DNA of 64,000 nt from Fomitopsis serialis (taxonomy: Eukaryota > Basidiomycota > Agaricomycetes > Polyporales > Fomitopsidaceae), in contig NW_025954983.1 of the NCBI RefSeq assembly GCF_022376445.1, forward strand, positions 1 through 64,000, read 5' to 3'. Positions within the stretch are counted from its first letter, which is position 1; each line of letters opens with the position of its first letter. A program made the translations under genes and the position numbers. The notes beneath the pieces were generated by a model. That model saw only the letters and a program-made list of their open reading frames with translations. It was not told where the DNA came from and did not search any database. Below are positions 27,840 to 63,036 of this stretch, in pieces.

Positions 27840-29184
27840 CCTGCATTCTCGATCCCGGTTCTCAGGTCATCTGCATGTCGGAAGCGCTGTGCTATCATCT
27901 CGGTTTATCGTTCGACCCGACCATCGTCTCAGCATGCAATCCGCGAACGGTGGAGTCGACCGCTCGCTCGGCCTTGTTCGAAACGTACCATGTCAAGTCG
28001 GCCCGATCACCTTGTATCTCCAGATCCACGTCATCAAGCGCGCGTCGTACGACGTACTGCTAGGTCGACCATTCGACGTCATCACTGAGAGCCTGGTGAA
28101 GAACTTCGCCGACGAGAATCAAACCATCACCCTGTTGTGCCCGAACACGTCCGAACAGATCACGGTACCTACGATGCCTCGAGGACGTCCGAAGTTCCAA
28201 GAGGTTTTTCAGAAGAGGCAGTCGGGACTTTTGAACACGTAGTTCAAGCCGACGATGACGAGCAAGTCGCGCTTGTGATCGACTTCGAAAACGATACCCC
28301 GTCCATTTCTGCCTACGCAACATATCATCTCTCGAAGACCCAGTTCTCGCGGCTACGTATCTCTCCGTTCCACATACCTACTCCAGTTTTGTTTTCGATG
28401 AAGTTAGGACAGCCACCGAGGCTACGAGATCGACTCAGCATACCCCGTCATACACTTCGAAACCTTCGAACACGCAGGCATCTTCGACCACTTCTCCGAA
28501 CACGCTCTCTCGTTCGAACGACCCACCTACGTATACCCGCACCGGCCATACCCACGACAGTACCGACTCGTCCGAGGATGCTCCTGATGTGTCCACATTC
28601 GCACAGGCAAAATCGAAGAAGAAGTACAAGCCGGTCGCACTCAAGACGAGACCTGTTCTCGGGTCTGTCCCCGAACAGTTTCGTATCGTTCGCGACATCA
28701 AGGGAGATCCGCTCTCTACGATGCGTGAACTCAACCCCAACCCACCTCCTTTCAAGCCCGAAGGTCGCTACACGGCCGAAAGGGCAGCCATCTCGGATAA
28801 GTTACACGACGATGATCTGTTACAACCTGCCGAACGCGATCTACTTCACCACTTCATGGCTACGAACAACGACGTGTTCGCGTGGTCAGACAACGAACGT
28901 GGCAACTTCAAGTCCGAGTATTTCCCACCTATAGACTTTCCTGTGATCCCGCATACGCCTTGGGTCCAGAAGAACATCCCTATCCCTCCTGGCCTGTACA
29001 AGGAGGTCTGTTCGATGATTCGTCGCAAGATTGACTCCGGCGTCTACGAACCTTCGAACTCGTCGTACCGTTCGCGGTGGTTTTGTGTTGTTAAGAAGGA
29101 TGGCAAGTCCTTGCGGATTGTGCACAGTCTCGAGCCTCTCAACGCAGTCACGATCCAACACTCTGGTGTCCCGCCGACTCCCGA
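27797..29184 (+). pseudogene. pol: Gypsy pol: protease and N-terminal reverse transcriptase, frameshifted and interrupted
   Basis: In the -1 frame relative to gag, a retroviral-type aspartic protease is visible (ACILDPGSQVICMSEA at about 27,840-27,890). Its frame slips again near 27,925, before MQSANGGVDRSLG, and a stop follows at 28,240, so the copy is decayed. From about 28,589 a long frame gives the linker and first part of reverse transcriptase (IPIPPGLYKEV, then VVKKDGKSLRIVHSLEPLNA). It stops abruptly after GVPPTP at 29184, where transposon P1 begins; it resumes at 46881. The pol reading frame on both sides fits exactly when P1 and one GA are removed. Confidence 0.85.
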
Positions 29185-29197
29185 CATCAGGAAAAAC
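29185..29197 (+). repeat. P1 left terminal inverted repeat
   Basis: CATCAGGAAAAAC. The first 13 bases are identical to the inverted right end and to the inverted right end of P2. Confidence 0.9.
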
Positions 29198-29576
29198 ACT
29201 TTTGCCGCCCAAGACTTTGGCCGGGTAGCGAAGTAGCGCCCAGCATTCTCAAGCACTTGGTAGAGATTAAATCTGCTTTCACGTTGCTTAGGAGGTATCG
29301 ATAGCATTGGAAGACATGACCAGCATGGTTTTAGCCTTGCGCGCAGTATGGCGCCCTTCAAACCACTTTATATTTTCCACAACCGTTCATACCATTGCAT
29401 GCGTATGTTGCGGAGTCATACCAAATTGCGCTGCTATTCCGGTACATACAATCTCGTACATTATACATAACATCGTTGCACTGTTCTACAGCTCCAGAAA
29501 TGCACTCATCTACATGCTACAGTACGGACAACCGGCGTTGTACTACATGATCATTGAAATCAAACAAACCAATTAC
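29198..29576. other. P1 left subterminal region
   Basis: Noncoding stretch between the left inverted repeat and the stop of the first accessory gene. It contains CTCAAGCACTTGG-like words resembling the right subterminal repeats; no gene seen. Confidence 0.4.
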
Positions 29577-30833
29577 TTAATCCTGCCCGATGTACCTATA
29601 CTCGTCCCAGTCGAAATAGTCGTCCGCACCGTCGTTATCCGTGTCCTCGTCCCCGCCGTCTCCATCGCCCGTACCCTCGGCCTCATGCGCATGAAGCTCC
29701 GGCTCCGGCAGGAGCCCTGGTAGGACCACGCACCCCGCCTCTCCCGGCTGTGCCCTCACCGCGATAACGCCCTGTGGGGCCCCCATGTCCACCACGCTCC
29801 AGTCCGCGTCCATGTACATGCGAGGGCCTTGAGGAAGGTCGACCGGCCAGACGAAGTCGAGGTTCATGAACCGGTGCTTCATGGAGCACATCGGTTTCAG
29901 GGGGGCTGCGCCTCTGGCGTAGCTGTTGACGAGGACGGTGGTGTTAACGTGCGGCAACTTGAAGGTGGGGAACTGCCGCAAAGGCAGCTTGAAGCGTATG
30001 GGGTAGTTGCCTTCCTCGCGGCAGAGAGGGTAGAACGTCTCCAGTGCGAGGTTGTACATATCGAACCCGTCGTAACCCAGACCGTGCGCCCTGAAGCCGG
30101 GGTTCTCCCCGAGGTCCTGACCGGGGAAGATCTGCTGCAGCAGAGGTTGCTCGTCCAGCCCGGCAATTTCCATCTCCAGCCCGAGAGCGTCGATCTCGCA
30201 CAAAAGCGGGACGGACATCGGGCCAAAATCGTTCTGTAGTGTAGTTAGTTACCGACGTTACAAAACAAACCGAGGCACGTACGCTTATGAAGAAGAGACA
30301 TTCAACTACCGCCGCCTTCGGCGCCCGCTCATTGCGCCCAGGTTTCCTCAACAGACGGGGGACCGTCGTCGGGTTGTCGTAGAACCCGTGGTACGCCCCC
30401 ATAAAGATGAACCCATCCAGCGGGATGGGGCCGGCGAACACGGACACGTCGTAGATGTCCTTGAGCATCTCGATCTGCAGCTCGAACGTCGGCTGCAGGA
30501 AGCCGTTGGACGGGCGCATAACGCAGCGGGTGTGGTAGTACAGGGGGCACTTGGACGAAATGAATGAGATAACGTTCCATGATCGGTGCGTAGCTGAACT
30601 GCACTTACCCAATCGAAAAGCTCCCCTATATGCCCGTGCCCCAGGCACATCACCGTAACGTGCGCGATCCCAGAGTCGAACGGGCATAGCTTGACCAGGC
30701 CCCGCTCGGAGATTCCCCGAAAAGAAACCGGTTTGTTCTGGCCCATGAGGTTGAGCAGTTGCGGGTTGATGCGCGACACAGCCATTGTAAAGCGAGATAG
30801 GAGCTGGGAGGAAGTGGCGTCAAAGTTGCTCAA
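29577..30833 (-). CDS. P1 accessory protein A, unknown family
   Basis: Three exons: start ATG 30833 (MSNFDATSSQ), exon 1 to about 30609; 57-bp intron with GTAAGT; exon 2 (CPLYYHTRC...) to about 30281; intron GTACGT...ACAG; exon 3 (NDFGPMSVPLLCEIDALG) to stop 29577. About 380 residues and apparently intact. It is rich in aromatic residues and Pro, has an LPLRQFPTFKLPHV segment and a FVWPVDLPQGPRMYMD segment, and ends in a long Asp/Glu/Gly tail (GDGDGGDEDTDNDGADDY). It is related to the neighbouring protein B: both share LPLRQ(F/I)P(T/I)FK, PMC(S/W)MK and (V/I)WP(V/S)D(L/M)P in the same order. I do not recognise the family. Its position next to a transposase suggests a role in the element's life cycle, but that is inference. 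Confidence 0.65.
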
Positions 30834-31268
30834 AGCGAGGCGGAAGTGATGGACAGGAGTTGGAAGCGCTCGGGAGGCGACGCGCGTCCTTATCGCAGAG
30901 AAGCGCCCGTCAGGCCACCGCGCGTCTGGAGGAAATAGTGATTTAATGATGAATATTCGTACTTACATTGGATTTTGGGCGTGCCACGTCTGTGAGAAGT
31001 GTTTTGAACGTGCTGTTATTTCACGTAAAGGCAAGCTATGGGAAGGGAGAGTGAGTTGGTGTAATGCGTGGGCATCCGCGTGTGAGCAGTGACTGCGGAA
31101 CAACTCCTCCCGGTGCTTCAGAAGAATCTCTCAGAGCACGAAAGCACAACAAACTTTTGTTAACCGGCTTCTGAAGAGTTCATAATGCGCTATAGCGCTT
31201 GCAATTTTGAAAAACGTCAACGAGTAGCTTTACATATGGTACGGACATCATGCGCGCGACATACAAAT
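30834..31268. other. Spacer between accessory genes A and B
   Basis: A 435-bp stretch between two minus-strand genes; expected promoter of A and 3' end of B. No other feature seen. Confidence 0.35.
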
Positions 31269-32323
31269 TCAATCCTCCGCGTCTTCCTCTCCAGCAGGCA
31301 CCAAAAACCTCCTCACAGCCGGCACCGGGGGCTCCTCCGACATGGGCGCCGCCAACATTTGGGCGTGGTTCCGGAATGGAATCGGGAGCCACGCGCTCTG
31401 CGTGAAGACGCGCTCCTTGGGCATGTCGGACGGCCAGATCCACTCGTAGTCGTGCATGTTGGCCTTCATCCAGCACATGGGCAGGGGCGTCAGAGTCCCC
31501 AAGGCGTACTTCGACGGGTGGCCCGCCATGGTGACTCTGCCGTCCTTGAAGATGGGGATCTGGCGAAGGGGGAGAGGGAGGTGGATCGCGTTCGCGTCGT
31601 ACAGATGCGGAGGGAAGAACGTGTCGAACTCGAGCGTGTAGTAGTCGAAAGGCGGAGGAGTGTACTGCCGCTTGCTCGGGCTAGGCATGGCGGTGAGGAC
31701 GTGCTGTGTGATAGGTTGATTCAAGGAGAATACGATCTCCCCTTCGAGGACGTCGCATATCACGGGGATGGATATCGGACGGTAGGTGTCCTGCACGGCA
31801 GTAAGACTTTGGCATGGGGAAATAAGATCTTTGCAACGCACCTTAACGTACACAAGGATCTCCAAAATGCGCTTGGAGGTCAGGTCGCCTTGCAGGCACC
31901 TCGGCAAGCGATAGCAGGACTCCTCCCAGAACTCCACAACCTCTCCCATGTAACGCCATCCTCCGAGCTCCGCAGGCGGGTCCAGCGCGTCAATGAGCTG
32001 TAGGGCCTTCTCCCTGGCGGCGTCCGTGGGCTGCCACGCCGCCGAGGTATACGCCCAGCAGATTGGCCTGTTGAACATGACGCACTGGGCGGTAAGACAT
32101 TACGTTAGTACGGAACATCAGCAACAAGACGGTTGTAGCGACTCACGTATTCAAAAACAGCCCCCAGCTGTTTGCGATAGAAGCATACCACTGGAATGTG
32201 GTTGATCCAGAGGAACTGCTGACAGAAGTTCCCGCCGGTTCGGGGAAAACCCGCAGGGCGGAGCATCTTGCCGACTATGCGCTTGACGCGGGGATCGATT
32301 GGAAGCAGTGTAGGATACGACAT
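31269..32323 (-). CDS. P1 accessory protein B, paralogue of A
   Basis: Starts at ATG 32323 (MSYPTLLPIDPRVKR). An intron at about 32145-32092 leads to an exon beginning CVMFNRPICWAYTSAAWQP, another at about 31843-31790 to DTYRPISIPVICDVLEGE, and the stop is at 31269. About 320 residues. Alignment by eye with protein A shows the same order of segments: INHIPVVCFYRKQLGAVFEY matches the AHVTVMCLGHGHIGELFDW block of A, and LPLRQIPIFKDGRV, LPMCWMKANMHDYEWIWPSDMP match its C-terminal blocks. It lacks A's long acidic repeat tail but still ends acidic (EEDAED). Family unknown. The two genes are in tandem, so a duplication inside the transposon is likely. A plus-strand frame covering the same DNA is a shadow. 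Confidence 0.65.
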
Positions 32324-32543
32324 GGGAGCAGTGTGTGTGTGTGTAGATAGTTGGTGGTGGAGGTTGAGAGGCGGGATCTCTGTACGGCGCGTAAACCGCA
32401 ATAAAGCGCCCGAAACTTTGGCGCCAGCACTCACAAGTGTGCCGCAAAGTTCAAACAACGTCTTGACGCGCGGTGGAGCTACTTGGGCGTACATCAAATG
32501 TAGTTATCCGGGGTATGACAGAAATGCATTGCATTATTACCAA

Positions 32544-35500
32544 CTACCATAATGTTTGATACGCGTACATCCCACCCCAATTGTTGAGATAGAAACTGCC
32601 CGCCTTGTCAAGTATGTTCTCTGACCTCCAATCATTGGGAACAACCCCTTGGGAACCGCCTGGAAAGTTGGGTACGAGCTGACAAGACTGTCGGATTTGG
32701 GATAATGGGATGATTTTACCCTGAGGAAGACCGCCAGCACGAAGAGGGGGCTTGCAGACTGGGTACATCAGGTGTACGGGATCCGGTGCCGCCGGGAATC
32801 GTGCATACCACTCGATGTATGCCAGTGGTTCATTGGGCCACCAAGCCGGTGCGGGGCGGGCGCCCCTCAATGTTGAGAGCTTCTTCGGTAACGCAAAAAT
32901 TACTTTCACTCTCGCGGCTCTGGTACCTGTCATTCAACGGCTTGGTTAGTTCGATGTTGACATGAGATTGGGAGTCACCACTCACCTCGTATACCAGTTG
33001 ATTCAGCGTCTTCATTTTCCAGTACGATAACTGTGTCAAACCGGTTGTTTCTTCCCTTCCGACCCGCCCCCGGGATGGCCTTCACGATATCCACTTCTTC
33101 TTTTCCCTCTGAGAGCTCGCACGGTTTGAAGTAGAACTTGTGATACACATGACTCTGTCAAATGGTAACATGGCTTGAGACAGATCGCGCCGAGCGAGTC
33201 GAAGTGTCGCCGGTTGTTGGTCATTGACAAACTGGGACAAGGCGGCCATAAATCCGGGGGCGTTGTGGCGCTCTTGGACTCGCAGCAGATGCTGTTGAGG
33301 GGCCGGTGGATATTTGGCAACCTTGGTGGTACACCCGACATCCACCACCTCTTCTGGTTGATGGCCAAGAGCGTCAGTGCCCGCCCCGGACGCGCCGTTG
33401 TCGGATTTCTCTACATCTTCACTGTCTTCTTCATCCTCTACCTCATCCTCGGCCTGACGTTCCCTCTGGAATGCCTCGTAAAGGGCCATCTTCTCCCGAC
33501 GTGTGATCCACCTCATCATCTGCGGAAATTCGTCGCGGTGATTGGAAGCCCGCCAGGCTTTCTTGGCGAAATCGATGTGGAGGCGTTCGAACATTTCCGT
33601 ATTGTAATTGTCGGTAGTGCCAAATAAACGGATGGATTCGACGTAGTGGAGAAGCGAGTGGAATTTCGGAATGTTGAGATGGTCGCGAATGCCCAAGGTA
33701 ACCAGAACGTCCTTGTGACGGTGGAAGGTCTTCAGGGCATCGGTCATGTATCCGAGTGTGTCGTCGTCATGAGTGGGATATTGAGCCAGGTATATGAAGT
33801 CCAGAAGTGAGCGTATCGCAAGCAGAAGACTTTTAGGAACTTTGCCTATGAGGCAGCCTAGGAGGATGCGTGCCATGTCTTTACGCTCCTTGCCGCTGAT
33901 CTGAGAGAGAGAAGATATGCCACGTTTGAAGTGGCGGATGCCATACGCATGCGGAAGGGTGCGTAGTCGCCTATCTAGCTCCTTGGGACCCAAGATATCT
34001 TGACACCAGGAGACGAGGTGCTTGAAGACCCCTTGGTAGAGCTGGTGAAGTACGTCGGGAGTGATGGAAAGGTGGATGTCGGTGAAAGGTAGGTCCGTCC
34101 AGAACGGTTTCTTCACCGCCCCGCTGACATCCTGCTCCATGCAGACCGCCTCCGCCACGGCCGCATTGCGACTACTCTGTGAGCCTCCGCAATGATGCTC
34201 TCCGTTCCATCCGGCGTACGAGGGTCTGCGGCATTCTGATCTTGGAGCTTTTCAGCCGGACATTGGCATTTCGGACACGTTCCATACTTGGAGCATGTCA
34301 CTAGACACTGCTCCGGGTAATCGGCGACGTACGCGGCAAGAATGGGATGGACACGGCGGACGGAGCCGTCCCCGCCGGTCACCTCCATCCCCTCCACACC
34401 TGCACGTACAAGGGGCTTGAGAATAACCCGCATGGCGGCGTGGAATAATCGTTGAGACCTTGCTTTGCGCTCGCGTTTGGTGAGCTTCTCGCCATCAACC
34501 TTGGACACTGGGAGGTAGCCAAGTAAGATACAGGCGTGTTCCGATGGTTTGCGGCGGATGGCGCGGGGGATGTTACCCAGAGTCAGGTAGACCGGGTATG
34601 CGCACTTGTTTCCGGAGAACTGGGTCAGCTGCGTTTTGTCGGTCGATATAATGACGGGTGCTACGGCATGGCCTTCCGGTAGTAGTTGCTGCAGTAGGAT
34701 CTGGTTAACTACATGGCATACAGCTGAGACGTCACTGCTTACCTGCACAGAATTCCACCACAAGCCGCTCCACATCTCAGTGAATATTCGCTTCGTTCTT
34801 GACCTGTCTGCGAACACCCGCCGGGGTTTGTACACGATGTGCTTTGCATAGGAAGGGTTGCCCAGCAGCGCTTGTATAGCGTCCAGAATGTCGCGATAGT
34901 GCACTAGATGGGTATCATCGGGACGGTCGGGGAACGTCAGGGATGCCGTCTTCCAGGCCGACCTATCAGGGATGCTGTCCACTCGCATAAACAGCTCGCG
35001 GACGTCCTTAAAGGTGAGACCGAGCTTCTCAACAACCTATAATGATCGCAGGCCATTAGGATGGGGCCAGGCTAACTGAATGGACATGGCATCACTTACG
35101 CCGGGAATGCTAAGGAACCGATTCAGGGACTTCTGCCCAACACCCTCACCGACGATCCACATGGCGACACGCCAGTCAAGCTCGGATGCGAAGGGCTTCC
35201 ATTGTTCATTGGCCGGCTGCCCATCCTCGCCATCTACATCCATCCGGTCATCCTCCCCATCTACATCCATTTGGTCATCACCTCCCGGCCCCTCACCATC
35301 ATCCTCTCCGAAGTAGGCCTTCCACTTCTCCACGATTGTCTTCTCCATGCGTATGACCTTTCCCGCGAGAGGATCTTCTTCTTCCACCCTGGTATCCTCG
35401 TCGTCATCCAAGGCGGGCGGGGTGGGATGCGAAACGGTTCGGGTGGAGCCGCTGAAGTGGATGATGAGCCTGAGGCTTGGGCGGAATTCTGGTAGTGTGG

Positions 35501-35812
35501 GTCTGCCGCAGGTTCAGGGAGATCGAACCGAAATAGATCTCTGTTCCATATGATGTCCTCCAGATTGTCGCACTCGTCGTCAGCGGAGTCCTCAGAGCTC
35601 GAGTCGACATTCTCTAGGATTTCTGGAGCATAGTACTCCCCAAGATCGCGATTCTTCCCTTTCTGATACCATTTGCAGGATCTTGCGGAGGATAAGTGCG
35701 CCATGAGCCCTTGGGAGGTCCTGAAAGGTCTGTCGCAGGCCGGGCAAGTGCGTCCGTCCACGTCACCGCCATAAGGAAAGGCCGGGCAAGTTGTCTTCGC
35801 CCTGCCTCTCAT
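32544..35812 (-). CDS. Plavaka-type transposase
   Basis: Start ATG 35812 opens with a zinc-finger-like CPACDRPFRTSQGLMAH segment (C-x2-C...H), an acidic linker, then the transposase core over several exons: STDKTQLTQFSGNKCAYPVY (about 34,660-34,590), ILAAYVADYPEQCLV and CSKYGTCPKCQCP (cysteine cluster, about 34,300-34,250), FWTDLPFTDIHLSITPDVLHQL (about 34,110-34,040), and IPKFHSLLHYVESIRLFGTTDNYNTEMFERLHIDFAKKA (about 33,680-33,560), all in the order known for Plavaka. The C-terminus ends with YLNNWGGMYAYQTLW at stop 32544. Two frame changes (near 35,410-35,430 and near 34,160-34,190) are not explained by introns I can see, so the gene may be inactivated, or the sequence may contain small errors. 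It should cut and rejoin the P1/P2 ends. Confidence 0.8.
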
Positions 35813-36716
35813 CTTTTATGGGCTACAAGTCACAGACCGGGTTTTAGGCCTCGTCCATGACCGTGAATATTTATCACATACCTGCTGCAGAGGATATAGG
35901 CCAGGGAGAGTTTACGACCCGGATAGGCTTGTGAGGACTTCGCAGAACTTCGTCGGAACTTGGGTCGACCTGTCGGCGCTTTTTTGTCAATTGAGCGGGT
36001 ATGAGACGTAATGTCGATCGCTCACGTTACCTTCTGTCAAGCGCAAACGTGCATCCTGATCCTCTACACTTGTTGTCAGGCTTACCTCCTGTCCCCATGT
36101 GCATGGTGAAGACACTAGCTTGGCCCTCAACGTTGGCCATTTCATTTATTGTGCAAGTGCAGAAGACATTAATCTACACTGGCGGCGAAATATGACGGAT
36201 CAGGTAAGTTTCCTCTCCACTGCTCCGTCTTTTATTACTTACTTGCATTCTATGTGGGGCTCCATCTTAGGTGCATTGCCCTTCTATGGAGAGAAGTCAC
36301 TACGCGCACACCCATATGCGCTTACCGGTGCGATCACTTGCCTAATATGGATTCTGGCAGCCGACTGTCAGAAGCTATATTGGGCAAGCGCCCACCGCGT
36401 AACTGGGCTTCCCAATAACGCCGCACGGGGTGACCGGTCGGCCCAGTTCGACACGACTGGGAGTAGTAAGTGTTTGACTTTGGGTCAGATTTACTCACCT
36501 TTTAAGCTACGCGTTGGGGCGGCAAGCCATTGATATGACTGTGGTGGTGAGCGCGGGTCGGCAACTTGACCCGCGAAGTTGTGGTTTGTTTTCCAGTTCA
36601 CATGGGCCTTGCGGAAGCTGACATTATGCAGATGTCCTAACCAAGTCCCATCTCACGGACTTCGACGTTCAACATTTCAACTTCCACGAGCTCGTTCGGG
36701 CAGTGCTACTCCCTGC
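35813..36716. other. P1 central divergent region
   Basis: About 0.9 kb between the divergent transposase (-) and the next plus-strand gene. It should contain both promoters. It holds a short retroelement-like remnant at 36,628-36,699 (separate entry). Other open frames, such as one at 36,099-36,533, do not look like real proteins. Confidence 0.4.
36628..36699 (+). pseudogene. Possible copia pol C-terminal remnant
   Basis: Twenty-four codons read ADVLTKSHLT and onward, matching the ADxLTK signature near the end of Ty1/copia RNase H. The stretch is isolated, with stops nearby. It may be a scrap captured by P1; too short to be certain. Confidence 0.3.
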
Positions 36717-38317
36717 ATGTCTCACAATCGCTACGCCTCTCTAGCTTCTGTCCTCTCTCTCGACACTGGACCGGATACCGCCTCAGATGTTGGGCTATCC
36801 GACAGCGAGACGGAGTCCGTCCCGCCTCAGACCCCCACCGATGTCTCTGGCAGCGCTAGCATTGCCACTCACTACTCCCCTGGAAGCACCTTTACCGACA
36901 ACCTTGAGTCATCTCCAACCGCCATTGCAAAGCTGTCCGGCGGCAAAGGGGGACGTCGGGGCCCCCTCAATCATTTCGACAACTTCAAGGCTCTGCATCG
37001 CTTCGCAACCACTCATGTCGCACAACCTGAAGACACTCACCTCATCTTCGGATACCTCCGGGACATCTCGACACTGTGGGAGCAGTGGGTGGACGGTGGA
37101 CAAGTGGGATTTGTAGTCAAGGTGAGCCAACATAATGGCCTTTGAGAACTGTAATCACGTCCGATATAGGAGATACTTGGGATCACGGAGAGAGAGTTCT
37201 TGCTACTGCAAACCATGGTGGAGGAGAGCTGGGACTGGGAGGTGAGCGAGGATCTTGTCAAGTACGTTGCGTTTCTGCGTACGATCAAGTGAGTATGACA
37301 AGCTCAGCCTCTGATTATGCGGTACAGCGCTGATGCGTGTTAGTATGGACTTCTGGCCAGGTGATGGCAGAGTCGTGCTCCAAGCGCCGACGTTCAGCGA
37401 GGACTTCTCAATCAACATCCTCTTCGATGTTGCATCCATGTTGCGCCTAAGTTCCGCCCCTTTTAACGAGGCGAGGCCGACAGTGGCATACAAGACCGAC
37501 GTCAAGAACACTGATGTGCAGTTTACGTTACGCCACAGCGCCGTTGTGAAGGACATAGAGGCCGTTCCGGGTACAGAGATCTTCCTCACGCTGGTGACCG
37601 ACACACGCCAGGAGTTCGTATATCAGATGAAGAAGGTATGATTGCGCATTTAATTTTTTGACCATCCGTTTAACCAGTGTTCACAGATCGCTGCGGCATT
37701 GCCGTCACTCACTATACTTCAAGGATTCATCGTCGCCATGATTGGGCCGGCCGAGGCAACCGTGGAGAGGCATGACCTGTACAGCGCCAGACGCGTACCG
37801 CCGGGTGCGGCATCCCAGTCCATGGAAGTATGTGTGGTGGTCTACACATCCGCAGAGTTTGCCAGATTTCGGGTGGCGGCGAGCGGCGCCATGGGTTTCG
37901 AGGACTGGGTGGAGGATCCCAACTTCATGGTGCGTTATTGCCCACTGATATGCCATGTCGGCGCTGACATGTAAACCGCCAGCGACTGCTCAGATCAAGA
38001 CCTACGCCGCAGACGTCCCGGCTGACGGCTTCCGCTTGCTGGATGAACACATCCATAGGATCGTGCTATCGCACGCCTCCAACATCGCCCAGCGCTCGCT
38101 CTTGGCCCCGCCCCGGAGCGAGGAGATGGACACGCAGCTTCTGGAGGACGTCTGCCAGGGGGCTGGTGATAAGGTAGTTCGGTGGCTGCACCGGGTGGTG
38201 TACGAGAAGTTATCGGCCATCGTCTGCCAGCGCCAGGGGCTGGGCAAGCCTTTCATTGGGAACGGCCAGCAGCCTTACTATGCGAAGGGCCTCTCTCGCA
38301 ACGCGATGTTTATCTGA
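36717..38317 (+). CDS. P1 accessory protein C, unknown
   Basis: ATG 36717 (MSHNRYASLASVLSLDTG) begins a Ser/Thr-rich N-terminus; introns at about 37121-37169, 37290-37343, 37637-37687 and 37927-37994 connect exons reading EILGITEREFLLLQTMVEE, FWPGDGRVVLQAPTFSEDF, AALPSLTILQGFIVAMIGP and TYAADVPADGFRLLDEH. The stop is at 38317 after LSRNAMFI. Roughly 420 residues, mixed alpha/beta look, no signal peptide or membrane segment, no known domain recognised. It is the first of four co-oriented genes on this side of P1. The clean splice sites and sustained reading suggest it is, or recently was, functional. Confidence 0.6.
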
Positions 38318-38537
38318 TCATCTGAGCCGGTTGTAGAAGAATGTCATGTATTATCCGTATGTTATCCACGATGAATGATGATGTTATGCGCGTTCCACCG
38401 CTTTCTCAGCGCCTGCATGCGGCGTTATACCGGCGCACATGTCCCTGTGAGAAGAGAAGGTGATAAGCCCAGTACGTGACCGCCCTCAATGCAATATCTC
38501 AACGATACGCCCTACGACCTAGGAGAGTGCTCGCGCT

Positions 38538-39969
38538 ATGGCCTCCCATGCTGCACCTGGCCATCTACATGAAGCCATAGATGCGCTATTCCGTTGGTTC
38601 TTGGGGAACATCCTCGTCCCAATAGGTGACATGGCTGACATACCCATCACATGCACCGCAATCTCTCTGGGCGAGTCGCCCGCCATCGTCCCGGACACCG
38701 CATACATCATTCATTTCGGTTTCACCATTCACGCCGTGGTTATTCAGGAAACTGGCGTGTCTCAAACGCCTCAACAGCTCATGCGGAAGGTGAGTTTTAC
38801 ACTGGTCACATCTCAAATAGAATTCATTGTACAAACCGCAGTGTCGGGACATGGTGGCACGAAATCTCATACCAGCTTGTGGGGTGCTCCTGGTGTTTGT
38901 GCACGAGACTCGCGGGGCCCCAAACACCGTTCCCGACACCGTTCCACAGCATTGGATCAATGCGACACAAGAAGAGCTGGCTTTGAAGGCCAAAAACGAG
39001 GCTAATCAGGCGGGCCCGAAAGCTGATCCGGACGATGCGAACAACGCACAAGCTGCCAGGAAGTCCATCTCAAAGCTATGGGGACCTTGGGAGCTCCTTG
39101 GGACACCCCCAAGCAAGGTTACGCCACTCTAGGCGGTGAACGCGCACCCATAGAGGGGCGTAATATCTTGGATCAGTTTCGCGAACGGTGGCACGGTCAC
39201 ATCGTTCCCCCTGTCGCCCTACGCGGCATTGTTCTTCATGGCGCGACCCAGCTATATGCCGTGGCCGTATTGCCGTCAGAATATGGCCTGTTCGACAGGG
39301 CCGTCGAGGAGCACTGGAGCTTGCACAAGGTCCTCGAGGAATTTAAGAGCATGGTATGTGAAGCGGCACTTGACTTCAATACTCAAATACTCACCAAGAT
39401 CTCAGGAGTTCTGCCTGAAAATGGGGAGCACGCCGCACTCCACCGAGGACGCCGTGGAGGAGTTCAGGAAGCGACTCCTCATGATGGCCATCTTGACAAA
39501 CAAGCTGCTGAAAGCCATCGTTGCCCGTGAAACCAACGCCATTGACAACGATGTGCCGGGCATTCTACACCACTTCCCCGGGGTCACGTCGACGCTGAGC
39601 AATAGTGTTTTGCTCAGTGTTGCGGAGCAGGACATCCCCGGTTTCTACACTACCCTACCGTCCCTCGACCCCTCTGACCCGGACGTCGCTGACACATTCA
39701 ACATCATCGGAGGCACCCTCACCACCTCCCTGCTCAACAACCTCGCCGGCAAGTTGCCCTCTAGGGTTCTGGACTACGTAACGTGCGTTTGTCAAGTTCG
39801 CCTTCGCAAGGCGGTCGATGCAAAAATCGCGAGCGAAGCGGCTTTGCGTAAGAAGTTGGATGGTAAGAAACGGGCAAAGAGGGAAGCGGCGCAAACTCGT
39901 GCGGCGAAGGTACAGCCGGCCAAGGGCGGCGGCTCAAGTGGGGGAGGCTCGAAAGGCTCTGGAAGTTGA
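38538..39969 (+). CDS. P1 accessory protein D, unknown
   Basis: ATG 38538 (MASHAAPGHLHEAIDALFRWF). An intron of about 54 bp (38790-38842; GTGAGT...CGCAG) joins LMRK to CRDMVARNLIPACGVLLVF. Further exons give an Ala/Asp/Asn-rich spacer, a YATLGGERAPIEGRNILDQF segment, a LRGIVLHGATQLYAVAVLP segment and a long last exon (about 39,406-39,969) whose C-terminus is a Lys/Arg/Ala-rich helix (KKLDGKKRAKREAAQTRAAK) and a Gly/Ser tail. About 420 residues. The basic tail could bind nucleic acid. No known family recognised; it lies between accessory C and the TET/JBP gene and is transcribed in the same direction. Confidence 0.6.
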
Positions 39970-40130
39970 ACTGGGACACCGCAGCGTACGCATGTTTCAT
40001 GAATAGATGTAGCCTTAATATGCACTGTAGCTTGAGGTCAACGAAATCACCCCATATCTAACTAACACGGATTCAAAGTGGGCCCTTGGGCGGCGCATCC
40101 GTGGGCGCTTAGTCATCGGGTCGGACGTTG

Positions 40131-43100
40131 GCCATCACCATGTCGGCGGTACTTCTCAGCCTCTCGGAAACCGAGGGAAGTGCACTTCTGGCTCTCTTGA
40201 ACAATGCTCCTGACCGCTCTCCACCTCTTGAGTCTATCTGGGAACGCCTCTGTAGTGCCATGGGCCCATCAGATCACCGACAGGTGGAGTTCGTAATGGA
40301 AGGTCATGACGTCTCTACTGGTCGTCAAACCTCTCCTGACTTAGCCCAGGTCCAGATACTCACGCTGATACTGAGCGGGTATCCGCGCCGAGCACAACCT
40401 CGTCTCAGGCAATTCCTAGTATGGATGAAGATGGTAAGTGTCATCGTCATCTTGTTGAATTCGTTAATTGAAGTGACCCCTTCAGACTCCGTGAGTCATG
40501 CATCCGGTGAATCTAATCTACACGAAGACGGACCGAGCGAAGTTGCAGTGCCACGTGCAAAGGGATCGGATGAAGAAGGCGAGTGGGCATTCCATGCATC
40601 CAGCTGTTAACGGGATCTGACCGCGTCTCATCCATAGCGTCATCAGAGGGCGAGGGCCGTACCACCGCACGTCGGTCATCCAGGAAGAAAACCAGCTCCA
40701 GCAGTGGCAGGAGAGCAGATGTCGCGTACTGGAAGTGTCGCACTGGAGGGCAGGTCGCCGCAAGTAGGCGGTGGATAAATCTCCACGCACCAGCAACCGT
40801 CATCACACCCGAAATTCATACATTCGTGGCCACACTGGGAACTGCCGTGCAGGAGGCAGAGTCACAAATTGTCGGGATACTGACCTCATTCATCGACAAT
40901 AACTATCTCCAATCAGGCTTCGCGAACGACTCACTGTCCTCAATATTACAGAGATGTCGTATATCTGCTCACCGGGACATTACAGTGAGCTTTCTGTTGA
41001 TGATTCATCATATCCAGCTCGTATGCAAGTGCACTGCGTAGGTGACAGTCAACCTCTGAAGAATGATGAGCGCTGACACAAGAATTGCTCCGTAATAGCC
41101 TACAGCGACGAGACAATCTGAAGAGCGTTACCCAGGTGTATGAAAAACATGCAAGTGGCCTCCAAGATGCCCCGGGCGAACGCACATTCCGATATTGGGT
41201 TACCATGGGCAGCAAGTTTGCGGCTGTTGCCGCTGGAGGTATGCGTGTAATTCCTTTGGATGACACGCCATTAATCTGGGTTCTCCCCGAAGGAACTATA
41301 TATCTGTTGATGGTCATTGCGTGGGCAGACCTGCGCACTGATCTTACGAAATCCTTGGACAATTTTGCATGGCAGTTGGCCAACGTCTTGCGCGCGCCTG
41401 ATCTCTGTAAGATAATTCCATCGTACAGATGATGCACCAACTGATTGCAACGCCGTGAGGGGATAGCTACAACGTGTGGTCAAATAATAGTGAAGAGACT
41501 GATTCCTGGCCTGGCTCGCATCCGCCAGCGTGTGTCGCTTCGTTTGGACACCATGTTCTCTACGAGCCTTCTCAAAGAGCTTAATCTCGGCACTGACACG
41601 ATCCTCTGTTCTGACATAGAACAGTCCGATCGTGTTTTGGGAGCGCTGAAAAAGAAGTAAGTTAGTCTCTTGGTTGACGATGCATGTCCGTACATAATGC
41701 TACTATTTAGTACCTTCGACACCGTGGACAGGGACGTGAATGCCTGGGCGCCGTGTCTTGTTGCGGCCGATCAGCAGCAACAATTCGAGCTTACATGGGT
41801 TAGTCAACGCGTACTCTGTCCGACTAACGACGTACATTGGGAGTACCCTCCATCTCCCTGTACCTCCATTGAGGAGGATGAAGGATGCGAACGTGACGAC
41901 GATATGGGGGGGAAGTTGCCATGGCGGACACTCTATCTGCACCCCTGAGGGTCTGATCATAACCACAAGCTATCGTCAACAACATGAAGATCATCACGCC
42001 AGCCCTGTGCCCAAGGACCCGGCAGATGTGTTTGCTTGGACGGAGTTGCAGCGTTCCGAAGCCAAGAAAGCCCATGAGCCCAAGACTGTCAAGGAGCTGG
42101 AGCGTCTGGTAATGTCCTATACCTGTATACCACAGCACGCGACTAATGGAACATTTAAAACGTGGTAAGCTCGCGGAAATGTATCACAATGGCAGACGCG
42201 TCGATCCTACTCAGTACATCAGGATTGCGCCGGAAATCATCAGGTCTGTTTCTTATGTTGTATTCATGATAAACGCGTGGCGCTAACTATCAAGTTCCCA
42301 GTCAAACCATGCAGATCCAAGATTGTGATGCAAGTCTCATTGCGTGCCTGTTTACGGACATGCCAGAACACCTTCGAATGACGCTCACCGCTAATCTTAT
42401 GGCATGTTTTGCCATGGAGGAGTTCATCTTCAGCCGATGTCGTCTGAATCAATGGGAGATGAATTTTGCTTCCCGGCGGTTCATTTTCTTGGTACAATAG
42501 GCATGGCATGAGAGTAAGTGACACGCTCTACCATGATCTTGTGAGTGCTAATAAAAATATGAACAGGGACACGACGTCCCGCCGGACGTGCATCCTTACG
42601 TGGTTGGCAAGTCGGACAGCACCAGGATGAACTACGGACAGCTGCTCCCCTATATTTCCAGCGATATGAGCAAATATCAAGACATCTACGCGGCTTTGCG
42701 GTCAGTATTTGCTGATGTGTTTGAATACATGGCCAAGAAGGTGAGTGATTCCAGTCCACGACCGTTATGTACATAATCCTCAGCAATCTACATGTCAGAT
42801 TCAGACAATATTGCCCGCCACCTACGCCGATCTTCGACTGGATGCTGAGATACTGCCGGGCAATGCGTGCTCGGTTGTGCACCCCTTCCTTTCCCTCGTA
42901 ATCAACCTAAACGTGGCCACTCTCGCGCACAGGGACAGTCAGGATAAGTCACTGTGCGTTGTCCTGGCTGTCGGAGACTACGAAGGAGGAGAGCTGTGTT
43001 TGTACGAGCCGGGTCTCGTCCTGCCGCTCCGCAACGGGGACTTTGTGGCGTTCCCATCCTCGCGAGTAACTCATTATAACCTACATTTTACCGGACAGAG

Positions 43101-43191
43101 GGCTTCTATTGTTCTGCACACGGACAGAGAGATTGAGAGATGGACAAACGGAGGGCGGAATGGCTGGGACGAAAATATGCATTTTCACTAG
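40131..43191 (+). CDS. TET/JBP-family 2-oxoglutarate/Fe(II) dioxygenase carried by P1
   Basis: Predicted to oxidise 5-methylcytosine (or thymine) in DNA using Fe(II) and 2-oxoglutarate. The catalytic core is in the last two exons (to 42,740 and from 42,799 to stop 43,191). Iron ligands: His 42,928-42,930 and Asp 42,934-42,936 (HRD motif) and distal His 43,072-43,074 (THYN). The 2-oxoglutarate Arg is probably 43,099-43,101 (GQRASIVLH). GDYEGGELCLYEPG between them matches the TET/JBP double-stranded beta-helix. The preceding exons (ISSDMSKYQDIYAALRSVF) fit the N-terminal part of the domain. Upstream, plausible exons go back to ATG 40131, but joins around 40,430-40,640 and 41,040-42,250 are uncertain. 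Catalytic residues are complete. Confidence 0.8.
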
Positions 43192-43454
43192 TATGTCGTA
43201 TCGTATGTTACGTGTCTCTGAATACCGCTTGCTCGCACCCCTGGCACTGAAACCGGTTACTTGGAAGGTGTTTAGTCTTATCGCTCCGGATCTGTTTAGC
43301 CTCTGGTAACAATTCGAAGGTCCGGGAGCGCACCCAACTCCGTTCCGCCTCTCTCCGCCACTCCGGCGGAAGACATCACCGTTAGCTTCATCTCACGGTT
43401 TTGTTTTTCGAGTACACTTCCGTGGTCTCGCGCCTGCTCGCCCATCTCGGGGCC

Positions 43455-46201
43455 ATGTCTACACGCCAGACACGATCTAACTCGACTGCGAAGCCCAATG
43501 GGGCTCGGGCAAAGAAGACCGGGGCCCAGCCGACGTCAAAAGGCGCCTCCGCGGGTAAAGCGACGTCCAGCAAACCTGATGCGTCGTCCAGCAAGCACGA
43601 TGATTCGGCCGCCGCCCCCTTTAACTACAATGCTGCACTGAAAGAGGCGAAAGAGTTCGTGAGGAAGGCAATGCCGAATGCCAGCGACAAAGAAGTTCTG
43701 GCCAAGGCTCGTAGATACGTGACGGACATGAGGAAACAGGGCACAGTGTCGGAGAAGGACCGACGAGAAGGTAAGTCTAGGATCTGGCCGGTCTCCATAT
43801 AAATTGATATGTTCGCATTGCAGGCATACAGGCAAAGAGCGCGTTAATGCAGAAGGAAGATGAGGATGGAGATGGAGAGGTTGACGAGTTGGAGGAAGAT
43901 TTTGGCGAAGGTGTGGAAGTTGTGCCGCCTACTAAGGCCAACGATAAACGTGGTATGTCTTAGCTGTTGCTATTCACTGCTCATTATCACCCTCTGTTAA
44001 GCAGGGGAGCCGAACAAGACAAAAGCTGGTCGAAGAGGAAGGCTCCCCCAGCGAGTGAGGACGAAGACAGCGAAGAGGAGGGCGTGGAACAGCGGGGCAA
44101 GAAGAAGGCGAAGGTGGAGAAGAAACGCAAGCTGGCGAGAAGGAACACGTCAGATGAGGAGGAAGTTGACAGTAATGGCGGACACAGGAGCATGGTGCGT
44201 TCATCTCGGTTGCGTTCACCCATATGATGAACAAATTAACTCTGAAAGTACCCATCCGCCCGAACGCGTCGCCGTCACGGGCTCGTCTCACCTCAGGAGC
44301 GTCGAAGGAGGAGAGCCAGTTGACAGCGAGACTCAGTGAGTGTCGAACGTGCTTTAACTGGTGATGTGACTATTATACAGCATGGATCAGAAGCGAGAGG
44401 CGGACCAGCCGGCCATCGGGGGACGAAGGCAGCAGAGGAAATGGAGGAAGAGGAACCGGAGGACGTGGAGATGCAGGGCAAGGGTATGTCCAGTGCCATT
44501 ACCACAAAAAATGCGGAGCTGACCAATTATCTACAATGTGACTGGGCTGGGACAGCACCATCCACGTCCGCGAAGGGCAAGGCTAGAGCCCTTTCGCCCA
44601 GGAACCTGTCCGACAACTCTGATGAGGATGATGGCGACGCGTTCCACTCCTCAGATGCAGATGCGGAGGGGATGAGGAGGAAGACGACATCAACGTTGAG
44701 GAGAATGAGGTCGATGACGACGAGGTAAGCCCTGTTAATTGTAACTATCAGGAAGCTAAACTGTCATCGCCAGATCATTGTGAAGCATGAGGAGAAGACC
44801 CCGCCGAGAAAGAAGAAAGCCGCAGAGTCGGCCAAGGCCAAGGCGAAGCCAGCCAGCAACCCTGTTGCCAAAATTAACTACGCTACTGCCGAGGCCAAGG
44901 TCATCATTGGGACTGAGCTCCTCAAGGGCTTCGTGCAAGTGGTGCAACAGGAGTTCCGCGTCTACCTCGCCTTGGAGAATGCTTGGCCCCGCTCTAGGAA
45001 GCACGGTTTCGTGGAGAAGACCGACTCCGCTGCCATCATCATCAAGAGGGTAGGCGAACAGCACAAGGCATTCCAGGGCGAGGAGTTCCAGGCCGTATAC
45101 AAGATCTTGTCGAAACGGCGGGAGGTGATGAAATACATGGCGAAGCAGGTAAGCACTGAAGTTTCAACTCTAGCTGACACCAACGATGATGGCCCTTAGG
45201 TGTACAAGATCGCGTCACAGTTCCGCCAGGAGGTCAAACAGAAGGCGAAGCGAGTCGCTGACAGGGACTTCCTGTCCATCAAGGTGACGGAGGTTGGGCG
45301 GAACGGCGAGAGGTTAAATCCTACAGCCCGTGCGGAGAAGCTCGTCAAGGCGATTGAGGCCCGCATCAAGTGGCTGAAAGAGAAGGATGCGTTCCACCAT
45401 GGTGGCATGAAGCTGTCGGATCCCGACGACGATACATCGGCGCGTGATTGTGACCGGCGTGCATTTCTTCGTACTAATCTACTGGAACAGCACAACGAGG
45501 TCGACTTCGACATGCCATTCCACAACGATGCAGTGGCGGAGGTCATGGCGCGTCAGTGGTGGCTTGGGCAGCACCCGGAGGCACTGCGCGAGGGCAACCA
45601 GAGCCGCTTCGACCTCAACAAACCTCTCTCCAGCAACATGATTGCCCTGGTGTGCAGCGCGGTGAGTGCAACATCCATTCTTCCATGTTCATCCATGTTC
45701 ATTGATGCAATTCCCAGCTGCTCGTTTGTTTTGACGAGGCTTTGAGAGGCAACATGACGATCAACTTCGACGAGAAGTCTTACGCCCCCGAGTAAGTTTT
45801 ATCTTTGACCGGTCCTGAACTTGAACAAGCTAAGATGAGCATTGTAGGCATGACCGCATCAAAGCTCGTATCGACAGGCTCAGGAAGCTGGCGGGCCCGA
45901 AGTACCGCGAGAAGAGCGGCGCGGTTGCCGCATTCCTCAAGTCCATGAACGAGACTCTGACGAGTCACATCCGGTAATGTTCCTTATGCTACTCTGACCT
46001 AGTACTAATGTTGCCTTGCGCTCAAGGACTGTCTCTGGCTTGGGCGGCGAATGGGAGGATGAGGCCGAGGAGACTGAGAAGGAAGATGGAGAGCTGGAAG
46101 GCTTCCTTTCCAGGTGGGGGAAGAAAGCTGCGACCAGCACTGGAGCGGGGCCCTCCGGAAAGGGTGGCTCGACCGCCGGGGACCCCGACAGCTCGTCGTG
46201 A
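43455..46201 (+). CDS. P1 DUF6532-like protein
   Basis: ATG 43455 (MSTRQTRSNSTAKPNGARAKK) begins a Lys/Ser/Ala-rich, nuclear-looking N-terminus, followed by acidic and Lys-rich exons (EDEDSEEEGVEQRGKKKAKVEKKRK). The conserved part starts around 44,800: EFRVYLALENAWPR, ASQFRQEVKQKAKRVADRDF, then PFHNDAVAEVMARQWWLGQHPEAL and LSSNMIALVCSA, features I associate with DUF6532, a basidiomycete-expanded domain of unknown role. Introns at about 45,151-45,199, 45,662-45,718, 45,793-45,848 and 45,976-46,025. Stop 46199-46201. About 650 residues. A clear paralogue is carried by P2 (55,699-58,611). Function unknown; basic regions suggest a chromatin or DNA context. Confidence 0.65.
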
Positions 46202-46865
46202 GGTTCGAACAGCGCGGAGCAGTGTGGCATCTAGGCGATGACAGGTGAGTGAGTGGGTCGTGTCATGACAAGTCAATATGCTCATATGTCAAACCCCATG
46301 AGAAGAGCATCAAGCAGTGTACGTTCGAGCTGTATGATATTCTCTTTCCTCTGGTTCCCTCGTCCAAATGTTGTCTTCCCGCGGCCTCATTGTGATTGTC
46401 ATTCATGTTGTAACGTCACTTCCCAGCGCATATCCCATCTGTACTCTTCATTGCTGGTTGTATAGTGCTCATGTTACTCATGTATTTTCCCATACGGCTC
46501 CATACCCCCCTGAGCAATGTAATGAATCTGATGACCACACGTAATCCATGAACTTCTGAGTGCATGCTAGCAGTAAACCAGGCCAGAATGGTAGTGGAGA
46601 GCACTGGCAAGGAACTGGAAGTACAGCTAAGCATGACCTAAGGGAGCAAGGACATCAGGAATGTGCGTCTTGTAAGTGCGCATGAGCACACTGGAAAGTT
46701 AACAGCAACAGTTAAACATTGGTTATAAGCATGCAAAATGGTTTTGCTTACTTCTAATTAGCGGACTTGTCTTGCAAGTCCTTCCAATTGCTTGAAGTAC
46801 TTAGAGCTGCTTTGGAGCTCTGCAAGCGCTTCTAAGCACTTGCAAAGCTCTTTTTTACTCAAGGG
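46202..46865. other. P1 right subterminal region
   Basis: Noncoding. The last ~130 bp contain clustered short inverted motifs: GGACTTG/CAAGTCC around 46,764-46,783, AGAGCT/AGCTCT around 46,803-46,822, and several GCTT, AAGC, GCACTTGCAA words. Clustered subterminal repeats are typical transposase-binding regions of CACTA-type elements. Confidence 0.5.
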
Positions 46866-46878
46866 GTTTTTCCTGATG
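46866..46878 (-). repeat. P1 right terminal inverted repeat
   Basis: GTTTTTCCTGATG, the exact complement of the left end, followed by the duplicated GA and the resumed gypsy pol frame. Confidence 0.9.
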
Positions 46879-47398
46879 GAACATCTCGCCGAACAGTTCG
46901 GAGGCCGAACGTGCGGAGGGATGCTAGACCTCTATGTCGGCTACGACGAACGTTATATCGCCGAAAGTTCGAGAGATCTCACTACGTTCCAGACACCGTA
47001 CGGAGCCATGCGACTTACTACGCTTCCTATGGGTTGGACAAATGCAGTACCCATCTTCCACGACGACGTAACCTATATACTTCAGCCCGAAACTCCCGAA
47101 CACACTGTACCCTACATCGACGACGTTCCGCTCAAAGGTCCGGCTAGCGACTACGGTGGCGAAGTCATCCCCATCAGAACCAGTCCAAAACGGGAAAGAA
47201 GCGCTCACCTCCCGTCCAATGGGATTAATTCTTCGGATCAACGTGATCGAGGCACGTCCTGCCGTTCGCTAATCGCTTCTCGAGTGCTCGCCATTGGACA
47301 AGACCTTCGGACGGCCTGGCGCGGAAGCATCTCGATGATCGCGGACGCAAATCAAGCGCCGGCGTGTTCGAGCCGACCGAGGACGGTCTGGATCTCAG
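46879..47398 (+). pseudogene. pol: Gypsy reverse transcriptase, second part, then truncated
   Basis: Continues the frame broken at 29184 (EHLAEQFGGRTCGGMLDLYV), with the RT motifs TTFQTPYGAMRLTTLPMGW and the catalytic YIDD box (about 47,110-47,125). After KGPASDYGG the sequence becomes unrelated and runs into the polypurine tract, so RNase H, integrase and the rest of pol are missing. The element could move only with proteins supplied in trans. Confidence 0.85.
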
Positions 47399-55024: not shown

Positions 55025-55037
55025 CATCAGGGAAAAC
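55025..55037 (+). repeat. P2 left terminal inverted repeat
   Basis: CATCAGGGAAAAC, one mismatch from the P1 repeat. A CAAGAGCTCTTG palindrome and further CTTGA words lie just inside (55,069-55,130), forming a subterminal repeat cluster. Confidence 0.85.
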
Positions 55038-55698
55038 CGCCCAAAACCCCAAGACGTTGGCGAGATGTCCAAGAGCTCTTGAATGCCTCTTGAAGAGATC
55101 CATATCTATTCAAGATGTCGACAACAGCTCAAGACAAGTCCCTCGATATATAGAGAGCACTATTGCTCAGTGACATCTCTGATAGCTCTTTACTATCTTT
55201 CTTACAGGTTGGGAACGCCAGCCGTATGGCCCATATTCTGGCAGCTCTTCAACTTCTCTGAGAGCATTATGCTAATCTCTCAACAGACCACATCAATTCC
55301 AATTCGGGCCATTGCATTCGGCGTATTGCAGCATAGAAATCATATCCATTGACATACAACATACAGCCCGTCGAAGCTATGCTAATATCCTACATCCAGT
55401 GCGTGTTGTACAATGTGAGCTATAAATCGATTTGCTGGTTGTGAAGGAAGAAAAGCACAGCTACAGTATTGTGAGCGACAAATGATACGTAGTACATATG
55501 TGAGCGACGGACGATGAGTAGTACATACAAGCTGTGAGAGCATCGAGACAGACAGGTATATCACCGGCTTGGAGGCTTGGATCCAATGTGAGAACGGAAG
55601 TACACGCCCCACGCGCAACCTGCAAATGATCAGTGAATAAGCCCACCAGACAAGACGGGACCATACCCATATTTGCAATCACCTCACGCCCGCTGCCC
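55038..55698. other. P2 left subterminal and noncoding region
   Basis: No gene recognised. The first ~100 bp are rich in CAAGA/TCTTG repeats; the rest probably includes the 3' end of the DUF6532-like gene. Confidence 0.4.
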
Positions 55699-58611: not shown

Positions 58612-59690
58612 GCTGTGAGTTGGCTACAAGGGATGCAAGGAGACAGACTTGTCACAGCAGGTGGAATCACTTGAGTGATTCCGCAACCGATAGTGAAAAC
58701 ATTGCGGGTTGGCGATACGGAGATGCGCGGAACACGTCTGACTTCGCGAAGCGTGATTCAAACACGCTCCGACAATTGCTGGCCCAGGCTCTTCAAGAGT
58801 GCGTAGATATGTTGACCGAGAGTTATGGTTGAGCTGGAGGTTCAAAAACAAGTCATTACGTGGCAATACGTGATGTCTGTCAAATAATATGCATTCGGGT
58901 AACATAACATACACAGCGCTAACTCTACTGAAAGTGACCCTTCTTTCCCTCAAGTGCACCTTTCGTTCGTCAGCTGTGCTGGTCTGTGCGTTGTTCCAGT
59001 CCATGCACTATGTGCACCCTCTCCCTCGTTTCCTATCCTCTCGCCTGCTCATCCACTCGCCAACACACTCACCCATCCAGTAGTCCGCCTGCCCACGGTC
59101 GGCGTGTGTTGTGCACGGAATGCCCGGCATGGCCGTTGGTCTGTACTAATGCGCGTGGGGTTCACCAATCATCTGTTGGCCGTGCCTGCGTACTGAGCAC
59201 TGAGCATCCGTCCAGTGTGCTCGCGATCGGCCTCCGTACCGTCGCCTGCCGGGCGCTCCGTAGCTCGTGGGAGCTTTCAGTTGTCATCACTTACCTTATT
59301 TGGGTTCGCAATGCATTGCGAACCCAAAAGCGGATCCTACGACAGGTGGTCCCGACGCACATCTCCGCGTGTCTGTCCTGGTCGAGTACACTTCAGTGAA
59401 ATGCATACGTCTGTGTCGACCGATGGGCGCACAGCCTGACACCACATCCCCTGGTCCACGTTCTCGCCCTCCGGATCCCGAGCCATCCCGCCCTTCCCGT
59501 CCCAGTACGTACGTGGTGCTCTCCGCCTGACCGCGTGTGCTCGTGTCAATGCGACACGCGTCCAGCGTGCGTGAATGCGTGCACTGTGGTACGTCGTCCG
59601 CGCTGTTCACTTCCGTACGTCCGGCATTCGAGCTGACGTGTGGTCCATCCTTCTGAGATGCTCGTCCAGCAGAGTGTCATCGATGGGCGA
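58612..59690. other. P2 noncoding stretch with a perfect palindrome
   Basis: No convincing gene. Contains the 30-bp palindrome at 59,299-59,328 and GC-rich, repeat-like sequence toward the right. Confidence 0.4.
59299..59328. repeat. Perfect 30-bp palindrome
   Basis: Two 15-base arms, TTTGGGTTCGCAATG and its exact complement, with no spacer. Its role is unknown; it may be a former inverted-repeat insertion scar or protein-binding site. Confidence 0.8.
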
Positions 59691-60660: not shown

Positions 60661-61179
60661 GGGAAATTCTTTTCAACGAAGCGAGTGAGCGTGAGGACAG
60701 AGGTAAGTACATACCGGCAGTGTGACTCTGAGTTCTGGCGCGTCAAGTCTTTAGCGCCTGAGCCTGGCGCGCTGCTCTCGACGACCGTCCAAACCCGGTC
60801 CAAACCAAGTCCAAACTCGCGTGCCCGCCCACTACTCGCGCGTCGACCCATCTGCCTGGCTCGCGCGCCATCTCGACCGTTTGTTCACACTCGCCCGCCC
60901 GTCTCCACGCGCGTTGATCCGCCCGTCTGCGTGCGCACTTGCTGGACTCTCGTCGTACCCAACTCACGCCGCTGCTACTACCAACCACCATGACCGACTC
61001 CCATGCGTTAAGGATCCCGCGCCTTCTCCTGGTCACAAGAAAACGAACGCGGAAGGAGGAGAGAGAGGGTGGGTGGAACTTGAACGTGCAGGGCGAGTCG
61101 GGGAAGAGGGAGATTGGAGCGAGCGCAAAGGTTCGGAAACCAAAGGTGCGCCCCGGTTGTTGCATGTACCTTGATTGGC

Positions 61180-63023: not shown

Positions 63024-63036
63024 GTTTTTCCTGATG
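63024..63036 (-). repeat. P2 right terminal inverted repeat
   Basis: GTTTTTCCTGATG, identical to the right end of P1. Confidence 0.9.

Follow-up and report, generated by a model that had tools for sequence, protein, structure and literature searches.

Does a transposon of the polypore Fomitopsis serialis carry a DNA dioxygenase as a working part of one mobile unit, or do the two ends of the supposed element merely enclose unrelated genes? The question is raised by positions 1 to 64,000 of contig NW_025954983.1 (RefSeq assembly GCF_022376445.1), a stretch of 64,000 nucleotides that we call the window, in which the element named here P1 occupies positions 29185-46878. As far as the DNA itself can tell, P1 belongs to a large group of TET-carrying PlavakaB transposons in this fungus, complete in structure but with damaged coding sequences. 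The explanation that, as a whole, we favor on balance is a TET-carrying PlavakaB unit whose dioxygenase would protect the element by oxidizing 5-methylcytosine (5mC).

P1 is a 17,694-bp DNA transposon bounded by exact 13-bp inverted ends. The features at its boundaries, including a host frame that the element interrupts, are as follows.

29185..29197, plus strand: left terminal inverted repeat (TIR), CATCAGGAAAAAC, exact match
46866..46878, minus strand: right TIR, CATCAGGAAAAAC, exact match
29183..29184: target-site duplication (TSD) GA, left copy
46879..46880: TSD GA, right copy
28259..29184, plus strand: left part of the interrupted, retroelement-like frame, recognized by frame continuity and alone without a Pfam match
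46881..47148, plus strand: right part of the interrupted frame, reverse-transcriptase-like (RVT_1, E=0.0017, below the Pfam cut-off)

Allowing up to one mismatch, the window holds four matches to CATCAGGAAAAAC, against 0.06 expected. The 66.2-Mb genome holds 179 exact copies, compared with none of a reversed control pattern (the same letters backwards). With exact repeats on both sides, these genomic copies and the GA duplication, the clear ends claimed in the original prediction (made from the sequence of this stretch) are well founded. When the P1 flanks are joined with a single GA, one open frame runs across the junction, whereas the frame is lost if both copies are kept; because of this, the TSD is taken to be the 2-bp GA. 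No subterminal repeat array was seen in P1, and the 9-base words common to both 450-bp ends are the TIR plus one other.

Between the ends, a purpose-written gene finder, whose model ends are approximate, gives the following gene set.

29577..30785, minus strand: gene A1 (family A), three-exon model, with related frames in the copies C62, C72, C158, and C345
31269..32323, minus strand: gene A2, three-exon model, an A1 paralogue by its sequence relation to A1
32544..35812, minus strand: Plavaka transposase gene (Pfam PF18759), with frame breaks near 34182 and 33151
36535..39937, plus strand: gene C, multi-exon model (a doubtful final 5-base exon at 40031-40035 is omitted), with related frames in C72, C76, C345, and C62
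40260..43191, plus strand: TET/JBP-like dioxygenase gene, multi-exon model, Pfam Tet_JBP below cut-off, frame broken within 42420-42500
42799..43191, plus strand: catalytic exon of the TET gene, with HxDx2D, distal His, and Arg
43455..46234, plus strand: DUF6532 gene (PF20149), multi-exon model, Pfam E=1.2e-17

The transposase is of the Plavaka type, as had been proposed: a hand-joined reading matches PF18759 with E=1.2e-109 (367 bits vs. a Pfam cut-off of 26.3), and the single open frame 34176-35012 scores 295 bits on its own. Given this domain, termini of the form CATCA..TGATG, and a TSD of 2 or 3 bp (here GA), P1 is assigned to PlavakaB. The DUF6532-like gene also proved to be what it was called. 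The TET/JBP gene does match Pfam Tet_JBP (E=1.7e-5), yet with 24.5 bits it falls under the cut-off of 34.9; in the relatives C23 and C156 the TET, read through stops, scores 35.6 bits, just above it. Where four unknown genes (A, B, C, and D) had been described, two are the family-A paralogues A1 and A2, and the remaining plus-strand stretch before the TET is read as one multi-exon gene, C. None of A1, A2, and gene C has a Pfam match. Family A seems to be unannotated, because it matches 117 stretches of the F. serialis genome and yet no homologue of A1 was found at E<=1e-3 among 5.8 billion proteins; a structure model of the family from two window sequences is too poor to use, with a predicted local distance difference test score (pLDDT) of 30. 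In the public gene model of the P1 locus (P0001), part of the TET is joined to DUF6532 and the distal-His stretch is missing, and an F. serialis database protein is 99% identical to the P1 TET over 35% of the query stretch.

Recurrence is what separates a unit from an accident. In an interval survey that took in 160 of the 179 TIR copies, at least 18 intervals of 2-35 kb lie between inward-facing TIRs (outward 7, tandem 14). Within these 18, DUF6532 is present in 17, the transposase in 16, the TET in 12, gene C in 7, and family A in 6. The recurrent order is the transposase on one strand, followed by gene C, the TET, and DUF6532 on the other; gene C is sometimes not found (C22, C23, C29, and C63), and the tandem family-A genes are optional, sometimes numbering two to five per element where present. 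All 11 intervals that hold the transposase, the TET, and DUF6532 have them in the same order and on the same strands, so the gene set suggested as a test of P1 does recur, with the reservation that not every copy has every gene. A 2-bp TSD is found at 10 of 16 TIR pairs, where shuffling gives a mean of 2.25 and 0 of 20,000 shuffles are as high (this count is without C237, C412, and a second element in the window; adding them gives 12 of 19). In addition, C345 and C62 are 93% identical across 20.6 kb and have different flanks. On this evidence, the P1 group is almost certainly a mobile unit.

Neighbors were also counted around 88 TET loci, drawn from 170 genomic stretches matching the C-terminus of the P1 TET, and compared with 122 Plavaka and 119 DUF6532 places among the matches listed (DUF6532 occurs at more than a hundred places in this genome). 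For 59 or more of the 88 loci, a DUF6532 gene is the same-strand neighbor 0.5-6 kb downstream (4, 1, and 0 for the other arrangements), a divergent Plavaka gene lies 3-15 kb upstream at no fewer than 38 (other arrangements 3, 1, and 7), and at least 25 loci have both. If twelve groups of identically or nearly identically scoring copies, possibly haplotypes, are collapsed, the counts become 47 of 70 for DUF6532 and 34 of 70 for Plavaka. KDZ transposons, whose link to TET was reportedly first described by Iyer and colleagues in 2014, keep different company. A KDZ gene lies within 6 kb of 3 of the 88 P1-type TETs, compared with 26 of 39 other Tet_JBP matches (those left of 71 genomic matches when the P1 type is excluded), where it is convergent. 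These 39 have DUF6532 within 6 kb in 4 cases and Plavaka within 12 kb in 7, in mixed arrangements, and the 20 that were read are all CcTET-like or close. A KDZ identity for P1 was rejected on the Plavaka Pfam match and the scarcity of KDZ near P1-type TETs.

Is the dioxygenase still an enzyme? Its catalytic exon was read in 49 copies (P1, 8 in elements, and 40 from the better-scoring of the 88 loci). The first His, the Asp of HxD, the Asp at +5, and the Cys at +9 are invariant in 49/49, and the distal His and the Arg are present in all 47 readable copies, which agrees with the proposal that the iron and 2-oxoglutarate (2OG) residues are kept. HxD also appears in all six rows of an alignment of P1 with P0002, P0003, P0004, P0006, and P0007. 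By residues, the P1-type TET has a 2-His-1-carboxylate Fe site and a 2OG-binding Arg; by a moderate model of P0002, it has the beta-helix fold. The invariant Asp at H+5 presumably stands in the place of the NgTET1 Asp that contacts 5mC.

Thirty-eight copies have at least 110 residues without a stop or gap, and 37 were used, with broken copies excluded, for the ratio of nonsynonymous to synonymous divergence (dN/dS). The median is 0.09 (range 0.05-0.33; 20 of 666 pairs with usable synonymous divergence), and the corresponding ratio of proportions of changes (pN/pS), pooled over eight independent pairs, is 0.13; the choice of better-scoring copies for residues and dN/dS, and of stop-free ones for dN/dS, biases both towards conservation. 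A dN/dS of ∼0.1 suggests selection, and the TET has very probably been maintained by it as part of the unit. In the comparison of C345 with C62, the transposase has a pN/pS of 0.06, the TET one of 0.10, and family A one of 0.32; the single change in DUF6532 is synonymous, and gene C has too few changes.

A fully supported branch separates the P1 type (38 copies) and five database proteins from the AG type (20), in a tree built by a quick method, with long branches, that is weak for depth. A single-sequence search with the P1 TET retrieved seven related proteins (three from F. serialis, the others from Plicaturopsis crispa, Artomyces pyxidatus, Suillus americanus, and Mycena galericulata), none of them PU-type, and a profile search with the TET alignment retrieved two. 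Against PDB sequences, the P1 TET model had no match at E<=1, and the alignment profile found nothing convincing (best E 0.011, a fusion without stated relation); one AG-type frame of F. serialis matches CcTET by sequence (E=1.8e-21). The best structural matches of the predicted P0002 structure are CcTet and NgTET1, and CMD1 is also among the matches.

Elements of this kind have been published. The main text of Kojima (2025; PMC12730594) describes TET-carrying PlavakaB transposons in Agaricus bisporus and Gymnopus confluens, with termini CATCA..TGATG, a TSD of 2-3 bp, and a PE-type TET whose hallmark is HxE. It reports TET in Polyporales solely on Kyakuja, and states that an earlier paper implied Plavaka-TET links in Fomitopsis pinicola, where no TET-carrying Plavaka family was found. 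P1 is like these elements in its Plavaka transposase, CATCA..TGATG ends, 2-bp TSD, and internal TET/JBP-like gene. It is unlike them in its host, which belongs to Polyporales, and in its HxDx2D, seen in all 49 sampled copies instead of the HxE of the PE type. Nor does it fit the AG type: the column aligned with CcTET Asp337, which according to the same text is essential for the 5mC activity of that enzyme, holds Cys in the rows shown, Cys stands at H+9 in all 49 copies, and the transposase is Plavaka rather than Kyakuja or Zisupton. The AG-type TETs of Kyakuja/KDZ share with P1 the carriage by a transposon, the genome, and Pfam Tet_JBP, and differ in their convergent KDZ neighbor and in lying on the opposite side of the tree branch. 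For Plavaka, DUF6532, gene C, and family A go unmentioned in the parts of the main text of that paper that the comparison covered. By title or abstract opening, no other report of a TET-carrying Plavaka was found, and DUF6532 turned up in one paper, inside a domain list, in a search to which most subscription literature was external and which is no proof of absence. The pairing of TET and Plavaka, presented originally as a departure from KDZ, is consequently not new, a TET-carrying PlavakaB with the same termini having been published; as far as that main text goes, what is new is an HxDx2D lineage distinct from PE and AG, in Polyporales, within a recurrent multi-gene cassette.

How might such a unit work? 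Like its counterparts in other CMCT transposons, the transposase would cut and paste the unit. The dioxygenase would oxidize 5mC that the host places on the element or close to it, which would keep the element's genes expressed against host silencing. DUF6532, present in 17 of the 18 TIR intervals, would at best guess be a DNA-binding or targeting partner of the dioxygenase. Of these steps, oxidation of 5mC is reasonably likely as the chemistry, anti-silencing as the role stands at about even chances, and partnership with DUF6532 is a tentative prediction. Three candidate C5-DNA-methyltransferases were scored exon by exon, with one match among the matches listed, a Pfam-confirmed frame (C79:391611-391925, locus L108) whose best solved relative (E=7.7e-88) is called Rad8, which we take to be the fungal maintenance methyltransferase DNMT5. 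Because of this match, 5mC in the host is plausible. En/Spm TnpA is a plant transposon-encoded anti-silencing protein, and to our knowledge both it and its Vandal/MuDR counterpart act without an oxidizing enzyme. They resemble P1 in principle, in that counter-silencing would be encoded by the transposon; the Vandal/MuDR protein is described in PMC12730594.

Several observations, besides the sampling bias given above, weigh against the reading of P1 as a unit protected by its dioxygenase. Among the matches listed, 29 of the 88 TET loci are without DUF6532 and 50 without Plavaka at the expected place, part of which short contigs may explain, and a TSD is absent at 6 of 16 TIR pairs. C76 has the transposase, gene C, and DUF6532 and no TET match; there is likewise no TET match in C129, C169 (5.5 kb, where DUF6532 alone of the five genes of the set was seen), C219, C237, and C412, and in C237 the gene order deviates. 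Some copies are probably haplotype duplicates, and copy counts may be inflated, because C62 and C124 have identical 12-base right flanks (with different left flanks, a pattern that haplotype copies or a misjoin could produce). Between C345 and C158, pN/pS is higher (TET 0.23, DUF6532 0.33, and A 0.33, the last from 3 and 3 changes), and the P0002 structure model has a mean pLDDT of 60. The nine elements computed have CpG observed/expected ratios of 0.90-1.10, and 4-kb bins across the window have ratios of 0.93-1.28; the values are near 1, so there is no sign of past methylation damage in either, neither CpG depletion nor a scar like that of repeat-induced point mutation nor any other mutational trace of methylation. 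Finally, the P1 transposase, compared with that of C72, has frame shifts at ∼34182 and ∼33151 with no space for an intron, and the P1 TET, compared with its paralogue P0002, has the conserved stretch before the catalytic exons scattered over frames in 42420-42500.

Some of these points favor an element enzyme that is something other than a 5mC eraser, one that oxidizes, for example, N6-methyladenine or thymine, or adds a bulkier CMD1-like mark, and so protects or labels element DNA. The invariant Asp five residues past the first His, presumably the place of the 5mC-contacting Asp of NgTET1, speaks for 5mC, as do the best fold matches, which are 5mC-TETs. On the other side, there is no CpG decay that needs relief, CMD1 is among the structural matches, and the lineage is without the Asp337 essential for CcTET 5mC activity (PMC12730594). 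We regard this alternative as possible, if on the unlikely side.

The frame breaks could instead be assembly errors in a P1 that is intact and currently active. They are small, no gene of the set is otherwise missing, and the two ends are undamaged; however, the transposase has two of them, the TET has at least one and, it appears, a second, and the transposase model of C72 can be read without a break in four exons, which makes this improbable. Whether the breaks are mutations or assembly errors, P1 is, as it reads here, structurally complete and coding-damaged, and its description as apparently complete stands for structure (ends and gene set) and falls for coding (transposase and TET).

The intervals with no TET match, among them C76 with its transposase, gene C, and DUF6532, would suit a TET that the element picked up a single time and has carried since as a passenger, gaining nothing from it. 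Against this, the catalytic exon is under purifying selection (dN/dS ∼0.1), the catalytic residues do not vary among the 49 sampled copies, which come from diverged families, and the TET keeps a fixed position beside DUF6532; we give the passenger little credence. That P1 is a chance composite of unrelated nested transposons between two similar ends is hardly credible and was rejected for the P1 group by the recurrence of the gene set: nesting does occur (P1 inside the retroelement-like frame, C158 between pieces of a TET gene) and the C237 order is odd, but the order is the same in 11/11 intervals, TSDs are above chance, and a 93% identical stretch of 20.6 kb lies at two sites.

A TET-carrying PlavakaB unit is thus the reading that we retain. 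It could be extended, speculatively, to a view in which HxDx2D TETs form a class of their own, the fourth, among transposon-borne DNA dioxygenases, which PlavakaB acquired separately from PE and AG. The TET would then be locked with DUF6532 (plus gene C and family A) into a module that protects itself, DUF6532 bringing the dioxygenase to element DNA. One genome houses two TET lineages in many copies of varied age, the AG type tied to KDZ and the P1 type to Plavaka, two different transposon superfamilies. This enables a direct test of the range of transposon-borne TETs, which might act on the family that carries them or on any methylated DNA. The link to TET and transposase also gives genomic context to DUF6532, a domain of uncharacterized function.

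Some variants of the unit are worth recording. C62 and C345 (loci L015 and L065-L067) show tandem amplification of family A, with up to five genes in one element. C158:28248-37472 (loci L026 and L027) is a 9.2-kb element with TSD TC that holds A, A, TET, and DUF6532 without a transposase; its identity to C345 is 99.3% at the left end and 89.5% in the right part. It was apparently inserted into another TET gene, because fragments of another P1-type TET flank it on both sides. The window itself contains a second TIR-bounded element at 55025-63036 (left end with one mismatch, TSD AG), in which open frames alone were inspected for genes of the set. A DUF6532 frame lies at 56458-57147 on the minus strand (Pfam E=4.5e-6), and the N-terminal part of this DUF6532, judged by eye, is at 58027-58623.
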